In this document: piece after piece, positions 10,280 to 19,238 of the stretch
How the letters are laid out: each line of letters starts with the position of its first letter
Numbering within the stretch: position 1 is the first letter of the stretch
Assembly: GCF_947495565.1 (NCBI RefSeq)
Contig: NZ_CANLZM010000003.1
Coordinates: 62,001 to 126,000, forward strand
Reading direction: 5' to 3'
DNA length: 64,000 nt
From: an uncultured Pontibacter sp.
Lineage (GTDB): Bacteria; Bacteroidota; Bacteroidia; Cytophagales; Hymenobacteraceae
The notes under the pieces: model-generated
The model's database searches: none
Told to the model about the DNA's origin: nothing
The model's input: only the letters and a program-made list of their open reading frames with translations
Program-made: the position numbers and the translations under genes

Positions 10280-10518
10280 GCAATCTTTATTTCGTAAGTA
10301 TACTTTACCAAATAATGCTTACTCATTTTAAATAAGCACCTGAAGAGCACGGAAACTATGTGTAATTTCGAGAATGGGAAGCTACTTTTTTCAATAATTC
10401 ACTAAGGCTATAGCTGAGCCTGCCATTTTAGTGTTGAAGTATGAGCCAGCAACTAAAGTATACTTTAAAGCTCCCCGTTGTACGTCTGCATCTTGTGGAG
10501 AGTGTCTTTAGAATTGTG

Positions 10519-10583
10519 AACGTTACTAGTGTTTACTGTGTGAGAGGCTGCAAGCCGAAGCATAAGGTGTAAATCTTGTTAGC
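10519..10583 (-). other. attC-like site A
   Basis: Read on the minus strand it begins GCTAAC and ends near GTAACGTTC. Inner arms TTTAC and GTAAA pair, around a core CTTCGGCTTGCAGCCTC that is shared with sites C, E and, more loosely, F. The TAA stop of the next upstream cassette gene is part of the GCTAAC box. It is the weakest of the sites at its far end, where the box is GTTCAC rather than GTTAGC. Confidence 0.5.
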
Positions 10584-11079
10584 AGCAGGAGTTTTTTAAT
10601 TCCTCAAGTGTGAATACTTCACTTCCTCTCTTCTCGTAATAGTCTAGCATTTCGTCAATCTTCCTTTTATCATAACTCGTAATACAATCTGATAAGACTG
10701 TAACTTTGTAGTTTTCCTTGCACATATTATATACGGTTGATTTCACGCAGGCAATGGCGTCTGCTCCTGTAATGTAAAATTCGCTTATTTCATTTTTCTT
10801 GACAAAGTCAGCAAAACCTTCGCTGGTCAATGCGTTGCCTTTGGATTTTTCAAAAATATTTTTAGAAACCAACTTCATGTCCGAAACTAATTCAGACCCA
10901 CGAGTATTAGGTTTGAAAGTCCTTGTGCCGTCAGATAAGTTATAATGCCTTATGTAAACCACATGAATTCCATTTTCCACGGCCCAATCTATTGATCCAT
11001 TAATATTGTCAATGATTTCTTTGTAGTTTTTGGTAATGTCATTTTGAATGTCAATTACTACTAAAGACTTTTTCTGCAT
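10579..11079 (-). CDS. Isochorismatase-like cysteine hydrolase (cassette gene)
   Basis: A 166-residue hydrolase of the isochorismatase superfamily. The catalytic triad is visible: aspartate in VVIDIQND (residue 10-13), lysine in FEKSKGNAL near 79, and cysteine in ADAIACVKST near 112. Such enzymes act on nicotinamide, N-carbamoyl groups or isochorismate; the specific substrate cannot be assigned. The stop codon lies inside attC-like site A and the start lies about 80 bases from the GTTAGC box at 11160-11165, so the gene fills a single cassette. It is more AT-rich than the flanking core genes. Confidence 0.88.
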   Translation of the reverse strand: MQKKSLVVIDIQNDITKNYKEIIDNINGSIDWAVENGIHVVYIRHYNLSDGTRTFKPNTRGSELVSDMKLVSKNIFEKSKGNALTSEGFADFVKKNEISEFYITGADAIACVKSTVYNMCKENYKVTVLSDCITSYDKRKIDEMLDYYEKRGSEVFTLEELKNSCC

Positions 11080-11166: not shown

Positions 11167-12826
11167 TCAGTTTGTCTAAAAACCTCCGTTCGTTTCTTAG
11201 CTAAAGATAGTAATTTGCAAATATACTGCACACATGATCAGGCCTTTTCTTCTCTGACCAAAGCCTGGCCAACATGCCCCATGCACAGCCCTCAAGTGCC
11301 ACAGTACACTTAAAAATGCCGCACAGTAAGCCAGCCGCCGCTCCAGGCCGACGATTTTGAGGATGCGGCGCAGGTTGTAGGCCACCAGCATCAGCCCCAC
11401 GTCGGCCGCAGCGCTCACCATGCCCTTTTTAGTGAGCACGTAGCTGTAACCCCACTGCCGCTTGATGGTGCCAAAGGGATGCTCGACGATGGCCTGCCTG
11501 CGCCTGTAGAGCTCCGGGTTGGCAGCTACATTTTGTCGGTTGAGCTCAAAGAGCGGTGAGTAAAGATTGCGCTCGATGAGCTTGCCGTTCCTGGCCGTGG
11601 TGCACAGGCTCCGAACCGCACACGTCTTGCAGGCCTTGGTGCGGTACTGGCGGAAGCTGGTCGGACTGGAGCGGTTCAGGTTCTTGGTGTAGACATGGCC
11701 GTTGGTGGTGAGGGTGAAACCCTGGGGACACGTGTAGGTATCGCTGGCGTGGTCATAGGCGAAGAACTCCACGTTGTAGGCCGGATCCGGGGCATTGGCG
11801 GCCGGCGCCGGGCTGGCCACCAGCGCGGTGATGCCCAGCCCCCGGGCGGTCTCCAGTTCCGAGCCGGCGTAGTGGCCCTTGTCGAAGAGGGCCGTGAAGG
11901 AGTTGTTTCTCACAATGCTCTTGGCTCTTCGGAGCATCGGGCCCATGGCCTGGCGGTCGTTGTGGTTGGTCACGCGGTAGTCGATCAAAAGGCAGTGCCG
12001 GGCGTCCACGGTGGCCTCTACATTATAGGCCACCTCGGTGATGGTATTGCGGATGATCAGCTGCCGGCTCTCCGGGTCGGAGGTGGAGACCTGGTCCTGG
12101 CCCGAGTCCTGGAGCTGCTGCAGGAGCTTGAGGTAATACTCGCGCCGCAGCGCATGGCGGGCCATGGCATCCAAAAGCTGTCCTGTTTGGCAGGCCTGGT
12201 CTGTCTGCGCCAGGGCCAGCTGATAGTCAGAGAGCTTGTCCTCGATATAGGCCAGGTGGCGGGCGATCTTGCCCCGGTTGAAGTTGTTCTTCTTCGAGTT
12301 CTGGGCCCGCAGCTTGGTGCTATCCCCTGCCAAAAGCTCTCCCCCGATCAGTTGAAAGTGCCGGGCCATTTTGACCGTAGCCCGGAAGACGCGGGTGATA
12401 GCCTTAGAATGGTTCTTGCGGAAATTGGCGATGGTGTTGTGGTCGGGGGCCAGCTGGCCCAGGAGCCACATTAGCTCGATATTGCGGCGGCACTCTTTCT
12501 CAAGGCAGCGCGAGGAGCGGATGCGGTTCAGGTAGCCGTAGACGAGCAGCTTGAGCAAAACAGTCGGGTGGTAGGCCGGGCGGCCGTTCTCAGGGAAATC
12601 GGTGCGGAAACCTAATTTATCCAGGGGAAGCGAATCGACAAAAGCATCGATGAAGCGCGCCTCGTTGTCGGCAGAAATCAGCTCCTCCAGGCTAACCCCG
12701 CCACCGGGAGGCTCGGTGCGGCTAAAGGCTTGTTTGAATTTCATAGATAAAGTGGGTAAGTCTACTATAAATTAGCCACTTAGCTCGATAAAAGTTGCAG
12801 GAAGGAAGATGTTATTAGACAGTCTG
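11167..12826 (-). mobile_element. IS1182-family insertion sequence
   Basis: A 1.66-kb element with one transposase gene. Its ends are imperfect terminal inverted repeats: the left end reads CAGTTTGTCTAAAAACCTCC from 11168, and the right end read inward is CAGACTGTCTAATAACATC. The sequence ACG occurs at both outer edges (11164-11166 and 12827-12829), a likely target duplication. Removing the element restores an attC-like site. Edges are accurate to a base or two only. Confidence 0.8.
11197..12744 (-). CDS. IS1182-family transposase
   Basis: A 515-residue DDE transposase. The N-terminal DUF772 domain is recognised by NEARFIDAFVDSLPLDKLGF and YHPTVLLKLLVYGYLNRIRS; a variable helical region follows; the DDE_Tnp_1_6 domain covers about 230-490, with ALFDKGHYAGSE and a cysteine cluster (CPQG, CKTCAVRSLC) before the last catalytic glutamate region (IVEHPFGTIKRQWG). 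The frame is intact and full length for the family, so the element may still be active. Confidence 0.93.
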   Translation of the reverse strand: MKFKQAFSRTEPPGGGVSLEELISADNEARFIDAFVDSLPLDKLGFRTDFPENGRPAYHPTVLLKLLVYGYLNRIRSSRCLEKECRRNIELMWLLGQLAPDHNTIANFRKNHSKAITRVFRATVKMARHFQLIGGELLAGDSTKLRAQNSKKNNFNRGKIARHLAYIEDKLSDYQLALAQTDQACQTGQLLDAMARHALRREYYLKLLQQLQDSGQDQVSTSDPESRQLIIRNTITEVAYNVEATVDARHCLLIDYRVTNHNDRQAMGPMLRRAKSIVRNNSFTALFDKGHYAGSELETARGLGITALVASPAPAANAPDPAYNVEFFAYDHASDTYTCPQGFTLTTNGHVYTKNLNRSSPTSFRQYRTKACKTCAVRSLCTTARNGKLIERNLYSPLFELNRQNVAANPELYRRRQAIVEHPFGTIKRQWGYSYVLTKKGMVSAAADVGLMLVAYNLRRILKIVGLERRLAYCAAFLSVLWHLRAVHGACWPGFGQRRKGLIMCAVYLQITIFS

Positions 12827-12886
12827 ACGGACTGGTGCAGCTAATGGGTGAGGCAAAGCCGAACATAAAAGCTGCACGTGGTTAGC
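12827..12886 (-). other. attC-like site C, main part
   Basis: On the minus strand it starts GTGCTAAC and contains a perfect arm pair, GTGCAGCT (12835-12842) with AGCTGCAC, around the core GTTCGGCTTTGCCTC. The end box lies beyond the IS at 11160-11166. The LRR cassette gene stops six bases before it. It is one of the clearest sites in the array. Confidence 0.65.
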
Positions 12887-12891
12887 ACTTG

Positions 12892-13668
12892 TTATTTTTC
12901 TTCAAGTTGTATCTGCGTCTTCTCTCTTACTTCTTTGAGGCTGGTTTCTACATTGCCGTACTTTAGCTTTGGAAGTGACTTGAGTTTTTCAAATTCGGCT
13001 TCAGGATAGTTCCAAGATGCATTGAAGCGAACTAAGTCCTTAAGTTTCAGTACTGGTTCAAAATACTTATCTAATATTCTGGTGTTTAGAAGAGTCAGGT
13101 ATTTAAGTCTTGTTAAATTTTCCAAAGGCTTAAGTGAAGTTAGCTTCTGAGCTGTCCAGATGCTTCCATCAATTCCTAAACCCTGTAACTTTACCAGACT
13201 GGATATTGGGTTGAAGTCAGCAATTTTTTTGAAATTCTCTATTTCTAAGGTTACAAGCTTATCTAAATCACTCAGAACTTCTATACTCTCAACTTGAGCA
13301 GAACTTCCTATATGCAGATGCTTTAGGTGCTTTAACTGTTTTAGATTAGACACATCCTTTATACTGCTCCACTTGATGTATAAACCTTCCAGATTTGGCA
13401 TCTTACAAACAGCATCAAAGATGTTCTGGCTTACCTTGCTGCTAAGCCATAAGAATTTAACATCGGCTAAAGATGGAAGAAGTTCGCACCATTGTTCCAC
13501 TATCTTTTTTTGCACCTTTGAAGCTGTGTCTAACTGTGTGATAGATAAGTTGAGCTTTGACTTAGGGTAATAGTCTTCTACTCTTATTATCGATTTTGGA
13601 GGGAACTTTGATTCTGTGTCCCAGCACCAGAAGCCCTTTAATATCTGCTCTTCTTTTAGTTCTTCCAT
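12892..13668 (-). CDS. Leucine-rich-repeat-like protein of unknown function (cassette gene)
   Basis: A 258-residue cytoplasmic protein with no signal peptide. From about residue 60 to 235 it has irregular LRR-like units of 22-25 residues, such as LKQLKHLKHLHIGSS, LSDLDKLVTLEIENF and LENLTRLKYLTLLNT. The N-terminus (FWCWDTESKFPPKS) resembles no family I know. Such repeats serve protein binding. The gene fits tightly between attC-like sites C and D: its start codon is only about 8 bases from the GTTAGC box of D, leaving little room for its own promoter. Confidence 0.7.
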   Translation of the reverse strand: MEELKEEQILKGFWCWDTESKFPPKSIIRVEDYYPKSKLNLSITQLDTASKVQKKIVEQWCELLPSLADVKFLWLSSKVSQNIFDAVCKMPNLEGLYIKWSSIKDVSNLKQLKHLKHLHIGSSAQVESIEVLSDLDKLVTLEIENFKKIADFNPISSLVKLQGLGIDGSIWTAQKLTSLKPLENLTRLKYLTLLNTRILDKYFEPVLKLKDLVRFNASWNYPEAEFEKLKSLPKLKYGNVETSLKEVREKTQIQLEEK

Positions 13669-13675
13669 AATGTGT

Positions 13676-13737
13676 GCTAACGGTTAGGCTAAAAAGCGTT
13701 GCTGTCCCAAAGGGCAGCGATGAATTTTAGCTCTTGT
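13676..13737 (-). other. attC-like site D, interrupted by a group II intron
   Basis: The plus strand reads GCTAAC at 13676, then paired arms GCTAAAA and TTTTAGC enclosing a hairpin GTTGCTGTCCC / GGGCAGCGAT, then CTTGT where the intron begins. The core differs from sites A, C, E and F, so this site is of another subtype. The intron's sense strand lies on the attC bottom strand, the orientation known for attC-invading group II introns. Confidence 0.55.
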
Positions 13738-14336
13738 GTGTGCCCAGCATGGCACGAGTTATATTTCGAAAGGAATATACTCAGATTATCCAGAGGGTGC
13801 AAATCCCTTACCGGCAAGTTGGTGAAGCCGATTAGCAAGCTGCAAGCTGGTATCTCGTGAGGGGTGCAGTGAAGGAAGCAGGACTGCAAAAGCCTGAACT
13901 GACGAACAGAAACTGCATAAGAGGCAGGGAGTCGCGGGTAAGCAAGCACATCTTTGCAAAGCCCCTAGCCAACAAACGGCTCTTTGTAGATGCAGCAGGA
14001 TTAGGTGGAAGGATAAGCGTCTTACCTGGGGAGGTCTCGCCCTGTCGCGTACAGGACGAGAAGTCAGCAGAAGCCATAGTAGCCGCCTGGAAACGAGCCG
14101 TAAGCGCTGCGGAGGCCTCACAGGGCGGTGAAGGGCTGAACGTTAAGCTGCCCGAAATCCGATAAGGAGGTTCAAACGGTGGAGTTTGCTAGCCTTATCC
14201 CAAACTAGGGCAAGGGCATGGCTGGTGTAAAGAGCGGCTCTGCTATCCTTGACGAACCGCCGTATACGCGACCCGTACGTACGGTGGTGTGAGAGGCGCA
14301 CCCCGTCAGCTAACGCTGACGGGGCCGTCTACTCAT
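13738..14336 (+). ncRNA. Group II intron RNA without its reverse transcriptase
   Basis: About 600 bases of ribozyme. The 5' end is GTGTGCCCAGCATGGCACGAG-like (13738), matching the bacterial GUGYG start. Domain I landmarks such as CTGACGAACAGAAACTGCATA are present near 13895. Domain V is at 14256-14288: an 8-bp stem ACCGCCGT / ACGGTGGT with CGC as the catalytic triad. Domain VI is a perfect hairpin CCCCGTCAGC-TAAC-GCTGACGGGG (14301-14324), followed by the typical CCGTCTACTC end. No maturase/reverse-transcriptase frame lies in domain IV, so mobility would need a protein supplied in trans. The exact 3' boundary is uncertain by a few bases. Confidence 0.85.
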
Positions 14337-14578
14337 ATATTTACAGCAACAAGTTGAAGTACAATTTCAAACTTTTGTAACTTCAATGATGACAATGTGA
14401 AAGGAGAGGATTAATCCGGTCTACTAAACACTTTGGATGTTGCAATCGAGAAACCCCTCTTCTTTCATTTCATCCCGAGCCTGAACAGTACCTAAAGGCT
14501 ATACTTCTATGTGTAGACCTAGCATCAGTTGTGAGTATAGGCTAAAGATGAAACTTCTTACCTAAAGCTACCTTTCCC
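14337..14578 (+). ncRNA. IS110 left-end noncoding region, possible bridge RNA
   Basis: About 240 bases between the intron end and the IS110 transposase hold no gene. In the IS110 group, the noncoding left end encodes the bridge RNA that guides target choice. Placement and length fit; I have not folded it and cannot mark the loops or the exact left end of the element. Confidence 0.35.
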
Positions 14579-15745
14579 ATGAAAAAAGACACCTCCGTCG
14601 TAAGACAAAACCTGGGAGTTGACATTTCTAAAGACTCTCTTGAAGTAGTGTTCTCCACCATAGACATACAGCAGTACGTCAAAGTAAAAGCGAGTAGGAG
14701 CTTTTCAAACAGTACGGCGGGCTTCAAGCAACTGCAGCAGTGGCTGGAGGCAAAGAAGGTAGCAGGAGTAGAGATAGGCATCTTATTAGAGGCCACCGGC
14801 ATTTATTATGAGCAACTGGCCTGGCACCTTCACCAGAAAGGCTATAAACTGTCTGTGATCCTGCCCACTAAAGCCAAAAGGTACCTGCAGGCCACCGGCA
14901 ACAAAAGCAAGAACGACAAGATGGATGCCAAAGGCCTGGCACGTATGGGCCTGGAGCAGCGCCTGCCCCTCTGGCAGCCTTTATCCGAAAACATCTACCG
15001 GCTGCGCCTCTTGACCCGGCAGCTGGAGGACTTTAACAATCAGCGCACCGTATGCCTCAACCAGCTCCATGCCCTGCAGCACAGCGCCTATCCGGTAAAG
15101 GAGGTAGAAAGGAACCTGAAGAAAGTGCTTCTCTCGCTGGAGAAAGGTATTCTGGGGTTGGAAGGTGCTATCACCGCGCTAATTGAGCAGGATGAGAAAC
15201 TATGGGCAAGGGTGGAGAAAATAACCGCTATCAAAGGCGTAGGCATCAAGACTGTTGCTGTACTGCTGGCCGAGACCAACGGTTTTGCCACTTTCGAAAA
15301 CCAGGGGCAGTTGGTCAGCTACACCGGCTATGACATCGTGGAAAACCAATCAGGGAAAAAAGCGGCTACTACCAGGATGTCCAAGAAGGGTAACGCCCAC
15401 ATCCGCCGGGCCATGCATTTGCCCGCTTTAGGCGTGGTGCGCTTCAAAGAGCCCGCCTTTGTGGCGCTCTACCAGCGGCTGATCGCAAGGGGCAAAACAA
15501 AGATGCAGGCCTACGTTGCCGTGCAGCGGAAACTGCTGATTCTCATCTGGGCACTGTGGCGGAAGGATGAAGCTTATGACCCAAGCTTCGGGCAGAAAGA
15601 ATCTTCCGGTAATGAGGAGCCGAAGCCTCTCTTTTCGCTTGGCTCCGAAGGAGACAGAAAACAAGTAGCCCCGGCTATTGCCAGGGCTACACAAAATGAA
15701 CTTCCGTGCAACGAATCGCCTGAAGCTCTCTTTTCGCTAAAGTGA
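14579..15745 (+). CDS. IS110-family transposase
   Basis: A 388-residue serine-containing DEDD recombinase. The RuvC-like DEDD domain starts LGVDISKDSLEVVFSTID, with a glutamate in LLEATGIYYEQLAWHL and aspartates in NDKMDAKGLARMG. The Transposase_20 domain contains ITAIKGVGIKTVAVLLAE and SYTGYDIVENQSGK, and the SKKGNAHIRRAMHLPAL segment includes the conserved region around the catalytic serine. The C-terminal tail after about residue 340 is low in conservation and repeats the short string LFSL. The frame is intact. It reads against the surrounding cassette genes. Confidence 0.93.
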   Translation: MKKDTSVVRQNLGVDISKDSLEVVFSTIDIQQYVKVKASRSFSNSTAGFKQLQQWLEAKKVAGVEIGILLEATGIYYEQLAWHLHQKGYKLSVILPTKAKRYLQATGNKSKNDKMDAKGLARMGLEQRLPLWQPLSENIYRLRLLTRQLEDFNNQRTVCLNQLHALQHSAYPVKEVERNLKKVLLSLEKGILGLEGAITALIEQDEKLWARVEKITAIKGVGIKTVAVLLAETNGFATFENQGQLVSYTGYDIVENQSGKKAATTRMSKKGNAHIRRAMHLPALGVVRFKEPAFVALYQRLIARGKTKMQAYVAVQRKLLILIWALWRKDEAYDPSFGQKESSGNEEPKPLFSLGSEGDRKQVAPAIARATQNELPCNESPEALFSLK

Positions 15746-15761
15746 AATTAATAAAATAATC

Positions 15762-16316
15762 CTATACTTTCACTTGCTTTTTAAGACAGTACCTCGATTG
15801 GGTAGCGTAACTTTTGTTTTCCAGTTCTATTAATATTTGCTTGGCATCGTCCTCATCAATCTGTTTTCCAATCGTTTCTATTTTACGACCATAGTTAAAT
15901 TGAACATTAATGTTTGAAACACCAAACATCAATGTTCCAGCGGCTCCAAATGAGTTGGAATTATCTACAATTTGAAATTCTCCAATTTTAGTTTTTTCAT
16001 ACTTTTTTGAACGCCTTAAAAACCAAACACACTTCGTATATCTTATGAAGTCAGGGTTTATTTCAACAATCTCATTTCCAAGAATTGCCCAATAAAAATT
16101 GAAAAACTTGTAATAAGCCCCCCAGAAAAAGAATCCAAAAATTATAGTGAAAAACAAATTAAAATTACCTTCTATTATTTGGTCAATTGATTGAATCAAT
16201 ACAACAATGAAGCCGACCAAAATCAACGTAACGAATACGGCTATTCCTATAGGTTTATGGCTTGGGTTGATTGTCAAAATAGAAGACTCCCCTTGCTCTC
16301 TCTTTTCTACGTTCAT
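15762..16316 (-). CDS. Two-helix membrane protein with PH-like domain (cassette gene)
   Basis: A 184-residue protein, with the start set at 16316 (MNVEKREQGE) because the longer frame up to 16487 reads straight through attC-like site G. Two membrane helices (about 25-45 and 55-75) are followed by a soluble part of about 100 residues with strands such as EIVEINPDFIRYTK, resembling bacterial PH-like domains. It is very AT-rich. Its stop is about 15 bases from the IS110 end, so the C-terminus (YCLKKQVKV) may have been altered by that insertion. Function unknown. Confidence 0.65.
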   Translation of the reverse strand: MNVEKREQGESSILTINPSHKPIGIAVFVTLILVGFIVVLIQSIDQIIEGNFNLFFTIIFGFFFWGAYYKFFNFYWAILGNEIVEINPDFIRYTKCVWFLRRSKKYEKTKIGEFQIVDNSNSFGAAGTLMFGVSNINVQFNYGRKIETIGKQIDEDDAKQILIELENKSYATQSRYCLKKQVKV

Positions 16317-16329
16317 TTTTTTTATGCTA

Positions 16330-16413
16330 CCCAACGTTAGTCCAGGTGGTGTCTCGTTGGAGGATCGCTGTGCTCTGCAAGGTTCCTCCAATGGCATCTG
16401 GACGGTGTTGGTC
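16330..16413 (-). other. attC-like site G
   Basis: Outer boxes CCAACG (16331) and GTGTTGG (to 16411) enclose arms GTCCAGGTG and CATCTGGAC, with a second arm pair TTGGAGGA / TCCTCCAA inside. At about 84 bp it is longer than the other sites and lacks their shared core, as is common for attC sites of different origin in one array. It lies 14 bases before the start of the 15762-16316 gene. Confidence 0.55.
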
Positions 16414-16925
16414 GAGGTTGTTTTCCCTTTTTCTCCCGGATTAATGCGAACTTTCTTATTTCTATTTTTTGGGAAAACACCCTGCATGGTTGGGTTATTT
16501 TCTCCCCTTAAACTTCTTCTTAAGTGGCGCTTTAGCCGCGGGCAATGCCGTTAATGCGGTATTAGCGACGTTGCCGGAGGCGTCAGGCCTTGGGCTGGCC
16601 TAAGGTAAAACGAAACCAACTAAATCATCGGCCTCTCTATTGCCGGCAACCCGCTGAAAAAGAGCCACCCCGGGCCGAAGCCAGCCCCTTGACTTTGTCA
16701 ATTCCCGACGCTAACTTCGCCCCTCCAAAGTCTTGCCTGGACGCCCCCGTCCGAAAGCACGCGCTTTCTCCCGGCTTCGCCGAGCAAGACTTCACGGCCT
16801 AAACTCCATTCATGCCTTTGGCTCTTTTTCCAGCCGCTTGCCCGCTTTAGTGGCCTTTGATGCCCTCCAGCCCTAAAAAGCATGAAAGACACGCCACTTT
16901 AAAATCTGAAAATAAGCCCAATCAC
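16414..16925. other. Apparently gene-free cassette of about 510 bp
   Basis: The stretch between sites G and F has only short, unconvincing frames on both strands. It contains AAGTGGCG near 16522 and its complement CGCCACTT near 16893, a pair of inverted repeats bounding about 380 bp, and is more GC-rich than neighbouring cassettes. It could be a noncoding cassette, a small nonautonomous element, or a decayed gene. Confidence 0.4.
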
Positions 16926-16990
16926 GGCCAACGGATTAGTACATGCTGCGAACGAGGTGTAACCGAGTATGGAGCATGTGCCGTGTTAGC
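16926..16990 (-). other. attC-like site F
   Basis: On the minus strand it begins GCTAACACGGCACATGCT and ends AGCATGTACTAATCCGTTGGC. The arms ACATGCT and AGCATGT pair, and the core ACTCGGTTACACCTC resembles that of sites A, C and E. It is nearly superimposable on site E over both arms. Confidence 0.65.
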
Positions 16991-16998
16991 TTCTGACT

Positions 16999-17986: not shown

Positions 17987-18050
17987 GCTAACGGTTAGTA
18001 CAGGCTATGAGCGAGGCGTAGCCGAAGCTTAAAGCCTGTGCCGTGTTATG
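17987..18050 (-). other. attC-like site E
   Basis: The clearest site. The minus strand reads CATAAC, arm ACGGCACAGGCT, core AAGCTTCGGCTACGCCTCGC, arm AGCCTGTACTAACC, then GTTAGC. The arms pair with one or two extra bases on one side, as in true attC sites where unpaired bases define the recombined strand. The TAA stop of the 18029 gene lies within it. Confidence 0.7.
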
Positions 18051-18451
18051 TGAAGACGTTCTTTCTTCATTTTTAATATTCCCACCAATACCAACGGTAT
18101 ACCTACTATGGTTCCGAAAAACATGAACCTTAGATAGTATTGGTCTTCTTCATTAAATATCCCCTCTGTTGCATATAACAGCATCGGCAGCATAAAGAGT
18201 GTAAAACCAAAAGCTGAAAGGATTTTCCAAATTGTTTTTTTAGAATTATAAAAGCCTAATAGGGTGATTGTCGCAAGAAGTCCATCCGTAACATAATGCA
18301 CAGCCATACTATCTGTTCCAGCTATTCTTGTTATTGGATACACAAGTGCAGAATTCAAGTAAATCAGCAATATCTGAGCTACAGGCACAAAAGACGACAC
18401 TAGCAAAAAGGCTGTCAATATTAATGGTATTGCGAGGTTTTCATCTTTCAT
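18029..18451 (-). CDS. Small four-helix membrane protein (cassette gene)
   Basis: A 140-residue integral membrane protein with four hydrophobic helices (about 8-32, 52-72, 76-94 and 105-128). I do not recognise the family. The last residues, HITRHRL, are encoded by the attC-like site itself and the stop codon is inside it, as happens in integron cassettes. It is the first cassette next to the tyrosine-recombinase remnant, the position that in an integron is expressed most strongly. Confidence 0.6.
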   Translation of the reverse strand: MKDENLAIPLILTAFLLVSSFVPVAQILLIYLNSALVYPITRIAGTDSMAVHYVTDGLLATITLLGFYNSKKTIWKILSAFGFTLFMLPMLLYATEGIFNEEDQYYLRFMFFGTIVGIPLVLVGILKMKKERLHITRHRL

Positions 18452-18601
18452 GATTACACATAACTACTGTATAGTAGGAGTACCTACTCCTACTATCTGC
18501 ACTATGTGTGGAGTACTGTTAAGACCTTTTCTACAGGTTTTCGTTTTAGATCTTGCTTTCTTTTCCATTCTTCCATAGCGCAACACTAATATAGTTATGT
18601 T

Positions 18602-18736
18602 CTACAAATTATCAAGCGGACTTACAATTTCATCCAAGGCGTAGGTGGCCACGAGCGTGTAAATTTCGGTGGTCTTACTGCTCCTGTGCCCTAGGTACCA
18701 CTGGTAACTAAGGCATCTAAAGGCTCCGATTGTTTG
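18602..18736 (-). pseudogene. C-terminal fragment of a tyrosine recombinase (integrase)
   Basis: Only the last 44 codons remain before an upstream in-frame stop. They read YQWYLGHRSSKTTEIYTL, with the conserved GH and the nucleophilic tyrosine of the XerC/IntI-type catalytic domain, and end SPLDNL, a typical terminus of Bacteroidota recombinases. The arginine and lysine of the active site are lost with the rest of the gene. It lies 150 bases upstream of the first cassette and reads in the same direction. It could be the relic of the recombinase that built the array or an unrelated integrase fragment. Confidence 0.7.
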
Positions 18737-19238
18737 TTAGGCCCGGTCATAACTACGCCCATAGTTGGTCGCAGGTGCTTTGGACGGTTCAGGGAGCGCT
18801 TGTCTACCAGGGCAATACTCAGAAAATGCTGGTGCAGTTGCTCTATGGTTTGCTGCGTTGTGTGCGCTACATAGCGTTTGTAGGTTTTAGAGTTTTTTAT
18901 AAAGCTGCTCTCTTTCGGGTGTTTGCCTATGCGTTGATCGGGCTTGTACCAGAGGCAGATACATATTTCCCATTGGTGTGGTATATAATAGGAGCATATA
19001 TGGTAAAGAGTAATACAAAGCCTAAAGTGACACGTGTTAAAGCGCTACCCGTGAATTATCCGTGTATACCCGGGTTATCCGGGTATACACGGATAAAATG
19101 TACAAGCATGGCACCAGTTGTAAAAGTATGCGGGCATGGCGGAGAAAGCATTATCAGGCAGATTGAAAAAAAATGCTCTGACCAATGCCGGGCAAGAGCA
19201 GGAAACCAAAAGAAGCTGCAAGATGAAGCAGAGAAGTT
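18737..19238. other. Degenerate region beside the integrase fragment
   Basis: Long open frames exist on both strands but none is convincing. On the minus strand a frame of about 118 codons without a start (18691-19044) contains RPKHLRPTMGVVMTG; on the plus strand a 179-residue frame runs from 18730. I recognise neither. The palindrome at 19056-19096 lies inside. The region looks like the remains of mobile genes. Confidence 0.3.
19056..19096. repeat. Perfect 18-bp inverted repeat with 5-base loop
   Basis: TTATCCGTGTATACCCGG (19056-19073), loop GTTAT, then the exact complement (19079-19096). Each arm contains GTATAC. There is no T tract after either arm, so it is not a standard terminator. Confidence 0.8.

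Follow-up and report, generated by a model that had tools for sequence, protein, structure and literature searches.

A group II intron that carries no reverse-transcriptase frame and lies inside a palindromic site between gene cassettes raises two questions: is its target really an attC-like site, and how could such an intron have arrived there? In the window (the whole stretch of 64,000 nucleotides analysed here) one such intron had been noticed in a preliminary description, which took the missing maturase as a sign of movement in trans or decay. We conclude that this is probably (probability about 0.78) an ORF-less group IIC intron of a Bacteroidota lineage, whose habitual target is the bottom strand of attC-like sites and which is mobilised in trans. 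The features on which this reading is based are listed in Table 1.

Boundaries of the intron and the element that splits it

A covariance search bears out the group II assignment. Rfam model RF02001 matched positions 13851-14020 (118.8 bits, E=9e-24) and RF01998 matched positions 14023-14136 and, together with a covarying structure over 600 nt, these matches are in agreement with a ribozyme of domains I-VI. The boundaries at 13738 and 14333 were set by profile comparison with about 100 relatives. The preliminary description was right on several points: domains V and VI are present, in this order; the 5' end at 13738 is GTGTG (GTGTGCCCAGC), directly after CTTGT; neither the ORF list nor the sequence revealed a reverse-transcriptase frame within the intron; and the intron lies on the strand opposite to the flanking cassettes.

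It erred on the 3' end, which had been placed at 14336. Nearly all relatives end in CTACTCGAT, whereas the window reads CTACT followed by CATATATTT instead. The sequence from 14334 onwards (CATATATTT...) already belongs to an IS110-family element, of which it forms the left end; this element encodes a transposase (14579-15745; NF033542, 206 bits). Its ends and the flanking CT are common to copies in three other genomes (G167, G174 and G187); copies elsewhere start with CATAT after CT and end in ...AGTAC followed by CT. From the ends of these copies it follows that the window element spans 14334-15794 and that the CGAT of the intron lies at 15795-15798, the full intron being 13738-14333 plus 15795-15798. 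Once these ends were defined the candidate end at 14336 was rejected, that stretch being transposon sequence. The window copy is disrupted, and the IS110 insertion is a later event that followed loss of the ORF. As a separate observation, an 87%-identical element in genome G163 (L169) is followed by CGATTGTGC, which resembles another intron 3' end; judging from this copy, the element may favour intron 3' ends as target.

Table 1. Positions of the intron, its target site and the surrounding array in the window
Feature	Coordinates	Strand	Remarks
attC-like site, same array	10516-10585	+	Covariance model R1, 52.9 bits; training-set member
attC-like site, same array	12823-12888	+	Covariance model R1, 71.5 bits; training-set member
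Cassette gene	12892-13668	-	Starts just beyond the R' box
R' box TGCTAAC	13675-13681	+	attC-like site, bottom strand; pairing partner of R'' GTTGGGT once the site is joined
Stem-loop of the attC-like site	13687-13731	+	GGCTAAAA..GGGCAGCGATGAATTTTAGC
ORF-less intron, assigned to group IIC, main part	13738-14333	+	GTGTGCCC... to ...GTCTACT; RF02001/RF01998
Domain V, CGC-type catalytic triad	14256-14288	+	ACCGCCGTATAC..GTACGGTGGT (ACCGCCGTA..TACGGTGGT; GAACCGCCGTA...TACGGTGGTGTGAG)
Predicted branch-point adenosine, domain VI	14331	+	Position by analogy with group II introns; CTACTCGAT end common to relatives
IS110-family element, 1,461 bp	14334-15794	+	At CT core inside the last bases of the intron
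Last four bases of the intron, CGAT	15795-15798	+	Cut off from the main part by the IS110 element
Rest of R'' box, TGGGT (R'' = GT+TGGGT), true 3' exon	15799-15803	+	Fits GTTRRRY
Cassette gene whose attC-like site was hit	15762-16316	-	Final codons now overlap the IS110 end
attC-like site, same array	16927-16992	+	Covariance model R1, 81.6 bits; training-set member; genus-wide ~60-bp repeat
attC-like site, same array	17987-18052	+	Covariance model R1, 74.9 bits; training-set member; genus-wide ~60-bp repeat
attI-like segment beside decayed recombinase gene	18461-18600	-	Similarity to C30
Relic of 484-aa tyrosine recombinase	18605-18984	-	tblastn; residues 16-107 and 452-484 only

Target site and class of the intron

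The 3' exon after the CGAT of the intron reads TGGGTAGC... from 15799 onwards, and with the IS element removed the target is CTTGT^TGGGT (CTTGT^TGGGTAGC). Its R'' box is then GTTGGGT, which fits GTTRRRY, and the palindrome is therefore better than could be seen in the preliminary description, which had placed a GCTAAC/GTTAGC box beside a cassette start; that box lies at 13675-13681 and adjoins the gene at 12892-13668. The joined site folds at -32.5 kcal/mol. As in attC sites, its R''/R' boxes follow RYYYAAC and GTTRRRY and its bottom strand can fold, and the intron junction is that of IIC-attC introns, namely TTGT^T within R'' of a bottom-strand attC. The upstream hairpin, followed by a short predicted IBS1 (CTTGT) in place of IBS2, is a hallmark of group IIC. 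The IIC type and the bottom-strand R'' box support the earlier view that the intron is independent evidence for the attC reading.

Intron-free versions of the site were found at other loci. The 57-nt hairpin of the 5' exon has a 100% identical intron-free copy in genome G191, and intron-free hairpins of 82-89% identity are present at five other places in four genomes, where they continue into GTTATGC, GTTAGC and similar sequences. These copies show that hairpin and GTT together recur as a unit next to different genes. The search for empty sites yielded near-identical ones in other genomes, but did not reveal an empty counterpart of this locus in any strain; among the 59 genomes searched, the neighbouring cassette gene was present only in this one.

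The genome, which by its nearest named relatives is Pontibacter-like (Hymenobacteraceae), contains one intact ORF-carrying relative, on contig C13, which encodes a 445-aa reverse transcriptase (RT)/maturase with a YADD motif. This copy, too, follows TCTTGT and lies between cassettes in the reverse orientation. The proposed search of the genome for a maturase thus found a related one, and action in trans is plausible. The C13 RT, with RVT_1 and GIIM as its only domains, is closest to the IIC structures 6ar1 (338 bits) and 7uim (328 bits), compared with 126 bits for LtrA. The domain V motif of the window intron matches those of plasmid IIC introns that insert after terminator hairpins, and a CGC triad is the rule for group IIC domain V (PMC7923331). 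Based on domain V motif, ribozyme model and helper-protein similarity, we assign the window intron to group IIC.

Since the window intron lacks an RT, its place in the RT trees is that of its RNA-level relatives. The Bacteroidota relatives form one clade (support 99/95), the IIC-attC references a separate one (100/100) and the terminator references a third; joining the Bacteroidota and IIC-attC clades was rejected (p-AU 0.0018). The C13-type RT, a candidate class C protein, branches outside the IIC references used, several of which are on long branches and among which varieties such as g6 (PMC4244168) are not represented. Class 1 integrons are the setting of the reference IIC-attC introns, whose orientation there is the reverse of that of the cassettes. 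Accordingly, the expectation of a IIC-attC intron holds for the IIC type, the attC-like target and the orientation, but not for membership of the known IIC-attC RT clade. As far as these comparisons of sequences go, the window intron is best regarded as a member of a Bacteroidota-centred IIC lineage that occupies attC-like sites almost without exception.

This target preference is evident from the about 100 further relatives gathered, which provided 99 distinct 5' exons and 74 insertions with both flanks. The 5' exon ended in GT in 98 of the 99 and had T at -3 in 83; the 3' exon began with T in 72 of the 74 and had a purine at +2 in 68, the full junction GT^TR being present in 67. The GT^T preference is not due to chance. 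Beyond the IBS3 base, the purine at +2 and G at +6 and +9 are conserved in the targets, which is not explained by intron pairing alone. Most targets lack a terminator-like T-run before the junction; long hairpins serve as targets for some distant relatives. A generic search for local complementarity to the junction arm succeeded at long hairpin sites, whose arms are about 87 nt apart, and failed at short ones. For 13 short targets RNAalifold gave a structure with R-box pairing (TAAC/GTTA) and a 10-bp stem, in which 94% of cells were paired (80.3% in shuffles) and covariation was 0.495 (0.221 in shuffles; 0/500 as high).

Several arrangements among the relatives are recorded here in their own right. 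Introns were found head-to-tail at L020, L042, L045, L055 and L053, where the 3' exon is the GTGCG start of the next copy. Each ORF-carrying copy in G167 and G184 (L018, L021, L030, L033, L035, L037 and L038) has a second RT just downstream, 33-35% identical, and a different 3' end; these copies are perhaps composite introns or twintrons. Finally, 5' exons and 3' flanks were identical at L101-L105, in Phocaeicola, Prevotella, Bacteroides and Paraprevotella records, which suggests that a single occupied site was recently passed between gut Bacteroidales.

Loss of the ORF and proposed mobilisation in trans

Twelve ORF-less copies, spread across three genera, form one clade with a single ORF-carrying copy (G005; support 100/100), and the nine full-length aligned ORF-less copies have a compact domain IV in common. 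In their shared structure 97.1% of cells were paired, compared with 91.1% in shuffles, and two-sided changes were present in 46 pairs, compared with 24.1 (0/500 shuffles as high); within domain V, three adjacent pairs had compensatory changes. These compensatory changes indicate that the ribozyme stayed under structural selection. In addition, each ORF-less copy occupies a different attC-like site, exactly at GT^T, which indicates that new insertions took place after ORF loss. Together, the alignments and trees indicate that the loss is old and shared. The nested position of the ORF-carrying G005 copy among ORF-less RNAs implies that the ORF was perhaps lost more than once, or regained.

Mobilisation in trans by a C13-type maturase would be the best explanation for this spread. 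No group II maturase was detected at E<=1e-30 in six near-complete genomes with ORF-less copies (G144, G176, G006, G171, G193 and G183). With at least six hosts lacking a match at this threshold, the helper must come and go, or there are other routes of spread. An ORF-carrying relative is present on a plasmid of Adhaeribacter radiodurans, a possible route for helper maturases. The choice between movement in trans and decay thus proved to be a case of both: the ORF-less lineage spread after ORF loss, with trans action plausible, but the window copy was later split by the IS110 element.

We propose the following course of events. An ancestor would have lost the ORF in one or a few events, and the ORF-less form would then have spread to many attC-like sites and genera. 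A maturase from an ORF-carrying relative, here the 445-aa C13 protein, would bind the intron RNA, which may reverse splice into the R'' box at GT^TRRRY when extrusion has turned the site into a hairpin. Recognition would depend mainly on the stem-loop and on short IBS1/IBS3 pairing, as in IIC-attC introns; by the same analogy, the intron is presumed to recognise single-stranded hairpin DNA and to be competent for splicing. Later, the IS110-family element split the window copy at the last bases of domain VI.

Other explanations have to be weighed against this one. The ORF-less introns lie in mobile cassette sites and several of their hosts have no detectable maturase, as would be expected if they were chiefly carried along by cassette recombination or horizontal transfer and did not spread by retromobility in trans. 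We regard this as unlikely, because the ORF-less copies each sit at a different attC-like sequence, exactly at GT^T, which requires new insertions and not carriage of one occupied site. The window intron might also be an ordinary terminator-targeting IIC intron whose hairpin resembles attC incidentally. IIC introns generally insert after hairpins, as do five plasmid IIC references used here after terminator hairpins, and some distant relatives use long ones. That reading is rendered quite improbable by the R' box, the covarying R-box pairing and the purines past the IBS3 base in the targets, by the lack of terminator-like T-runs in most of them, by native array sites that belong to the same repeat family and by the recurrence of such sites downstream of a tyrosine recombinase.

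Lateral acquisition from the classical proteobacterial IIC-attC lineage would explain why junction in R'' and orientation are the same as for class-1-integron introns; it is very improbable given that the Bacteroidota RTs, those of RNA-level relatives, form their own clade and that a joint clade was rejected (p-AU 0.0018). Least probable of all, hardly to be credited, is a one-off decaying relic, now dead after a local deletion of its ORF. The missing ORF and the IS110 insertion are what such a relic would show, but nine ORF-less copies in the alignment, which come from three genera and occupy different sites, have the same compact domain IV, compensatory changes run throughout the ribozyme, and the IS insertion came later. 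The relic reading is refuted for the lineage and holds only for the final state of the window copy.

The cassette array and the wider setting

The native sites of the array belong to a second, 60-bp site type, which also includes intron targets. Repeats of this type are present in dozens of genomes of the genus (two candidates per genome scored) and, out of sample, the model for this type placed sites downstream of the recombinase at six of the seven recombinase loci with hits. Owing to the degeneracy of R' and R'', a strict attC consensus scan picked up only a minority of the sites. At the head of the window array lie a decayed recombinase gene and an attI-like segment; positions 18461-18694 show 91.5% identity to the sequence next to the intact C30 recombinase gene. 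Intact copies are present on C3 and C30 (L222, 6386-7840; L221, 896-2347). The C3 copy is followed by GTTAGCAA and then by two cassettes with an attC-like site between them. This 484-aa family was found in 51 of the 100 family genomes, and in G184 a recombinase gene is no more than 12 kb away from four of the six intron copies. Two further elements were observed: an IS1182-family transposase gene within the array (11197-12744) and, at 16325-16937 of the window, a ~600-bp repeat without a long ORF, 77-86% identical in more than 10 genomes, often near contig ends and with its right end adjoining an attC-like site on C30.

Compared with the NCBIfam integron integrase model TIGR02249, the recombinases of this genome scored 202-206 bits (cut-off 265) and left positions about 178-241 unmatched, which is presumably where the I2 segment of integron integrases lies. 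A canonical IntI with the extra I2 segment was thus not found among them in this comparison, and the 484-aa family appears to lack I2. Together with the attC-like arrays it is a candidate integron-like platform of Hymenobacteraceae. A broader reading, for and against which we see the chances as evenly balanced, is that a second, phylogenetically separate IIC lineage has specialised on Bacteroidota attC-like sites, that its ORF-less branch is a trans-mobilised satellite even where there is no current maturase, and that the sites mark an integron-like system of tyrosine recombinases without I2.

Among known systems, group IIC-attC introns (S.ma.I2 type; plasmid loci L186, L187, L244, L245 and L246) share with the window lineage the IIC ribozyme, an apparent lack of the En domain, and insertion at GT^T of R'' on the bottom strand, counter to the direction in which the cassettes are transcribed; the window lineage differs in its separate RT clade, its Bacteroidota hosts, attC-like sites without a tie to canonical IntI, and an ORF-less sublineage. 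Terminator-targeting IIC introns (GsI-IIC, E. rectale IIC, L184, L188, L189, L194 and L195) have the same domain V motif, RF02001/RF01998 matches, RT family and upstream hairpin, but their targets are terminators with T-runs and not attC-like sites. ORF-less bacterial group II introns helped in trans, described as rare in a review (PMC4424553), likewise lack an IEP of their own, and for the window intron a related IEP of this genome may act in trans; the window lineage differs in that it is wide, occupies many sites and is also present in hosts without a detectable maturase. Introns UHB.I2 and that of H. halochloris, in integrons or CALINs, likewise lie in cassette arrays outside the classical IIC-attC group, but are IIB with other IEP classes, and UHB.I2 follows attC directly in cassette orientation (PMC7923331).

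In Bacteroidetes, searches by the authors of IntegronFinder yielded few integrons (PMC9024848), although another source includes this phylum among integron carriers (PMC8618304). The intron lineage is a natural reporter of attC-like sites there, and thereby flags integron-like cassette systems in Bacteroidota, where integrons are rarely recognised. In addition, a widespread ORF-less group II lineage provides material for testing maturase use in trans, and attC targeting, suggested in two separate IIC branches, would make the recognition of folded DNA comparable across lineages.
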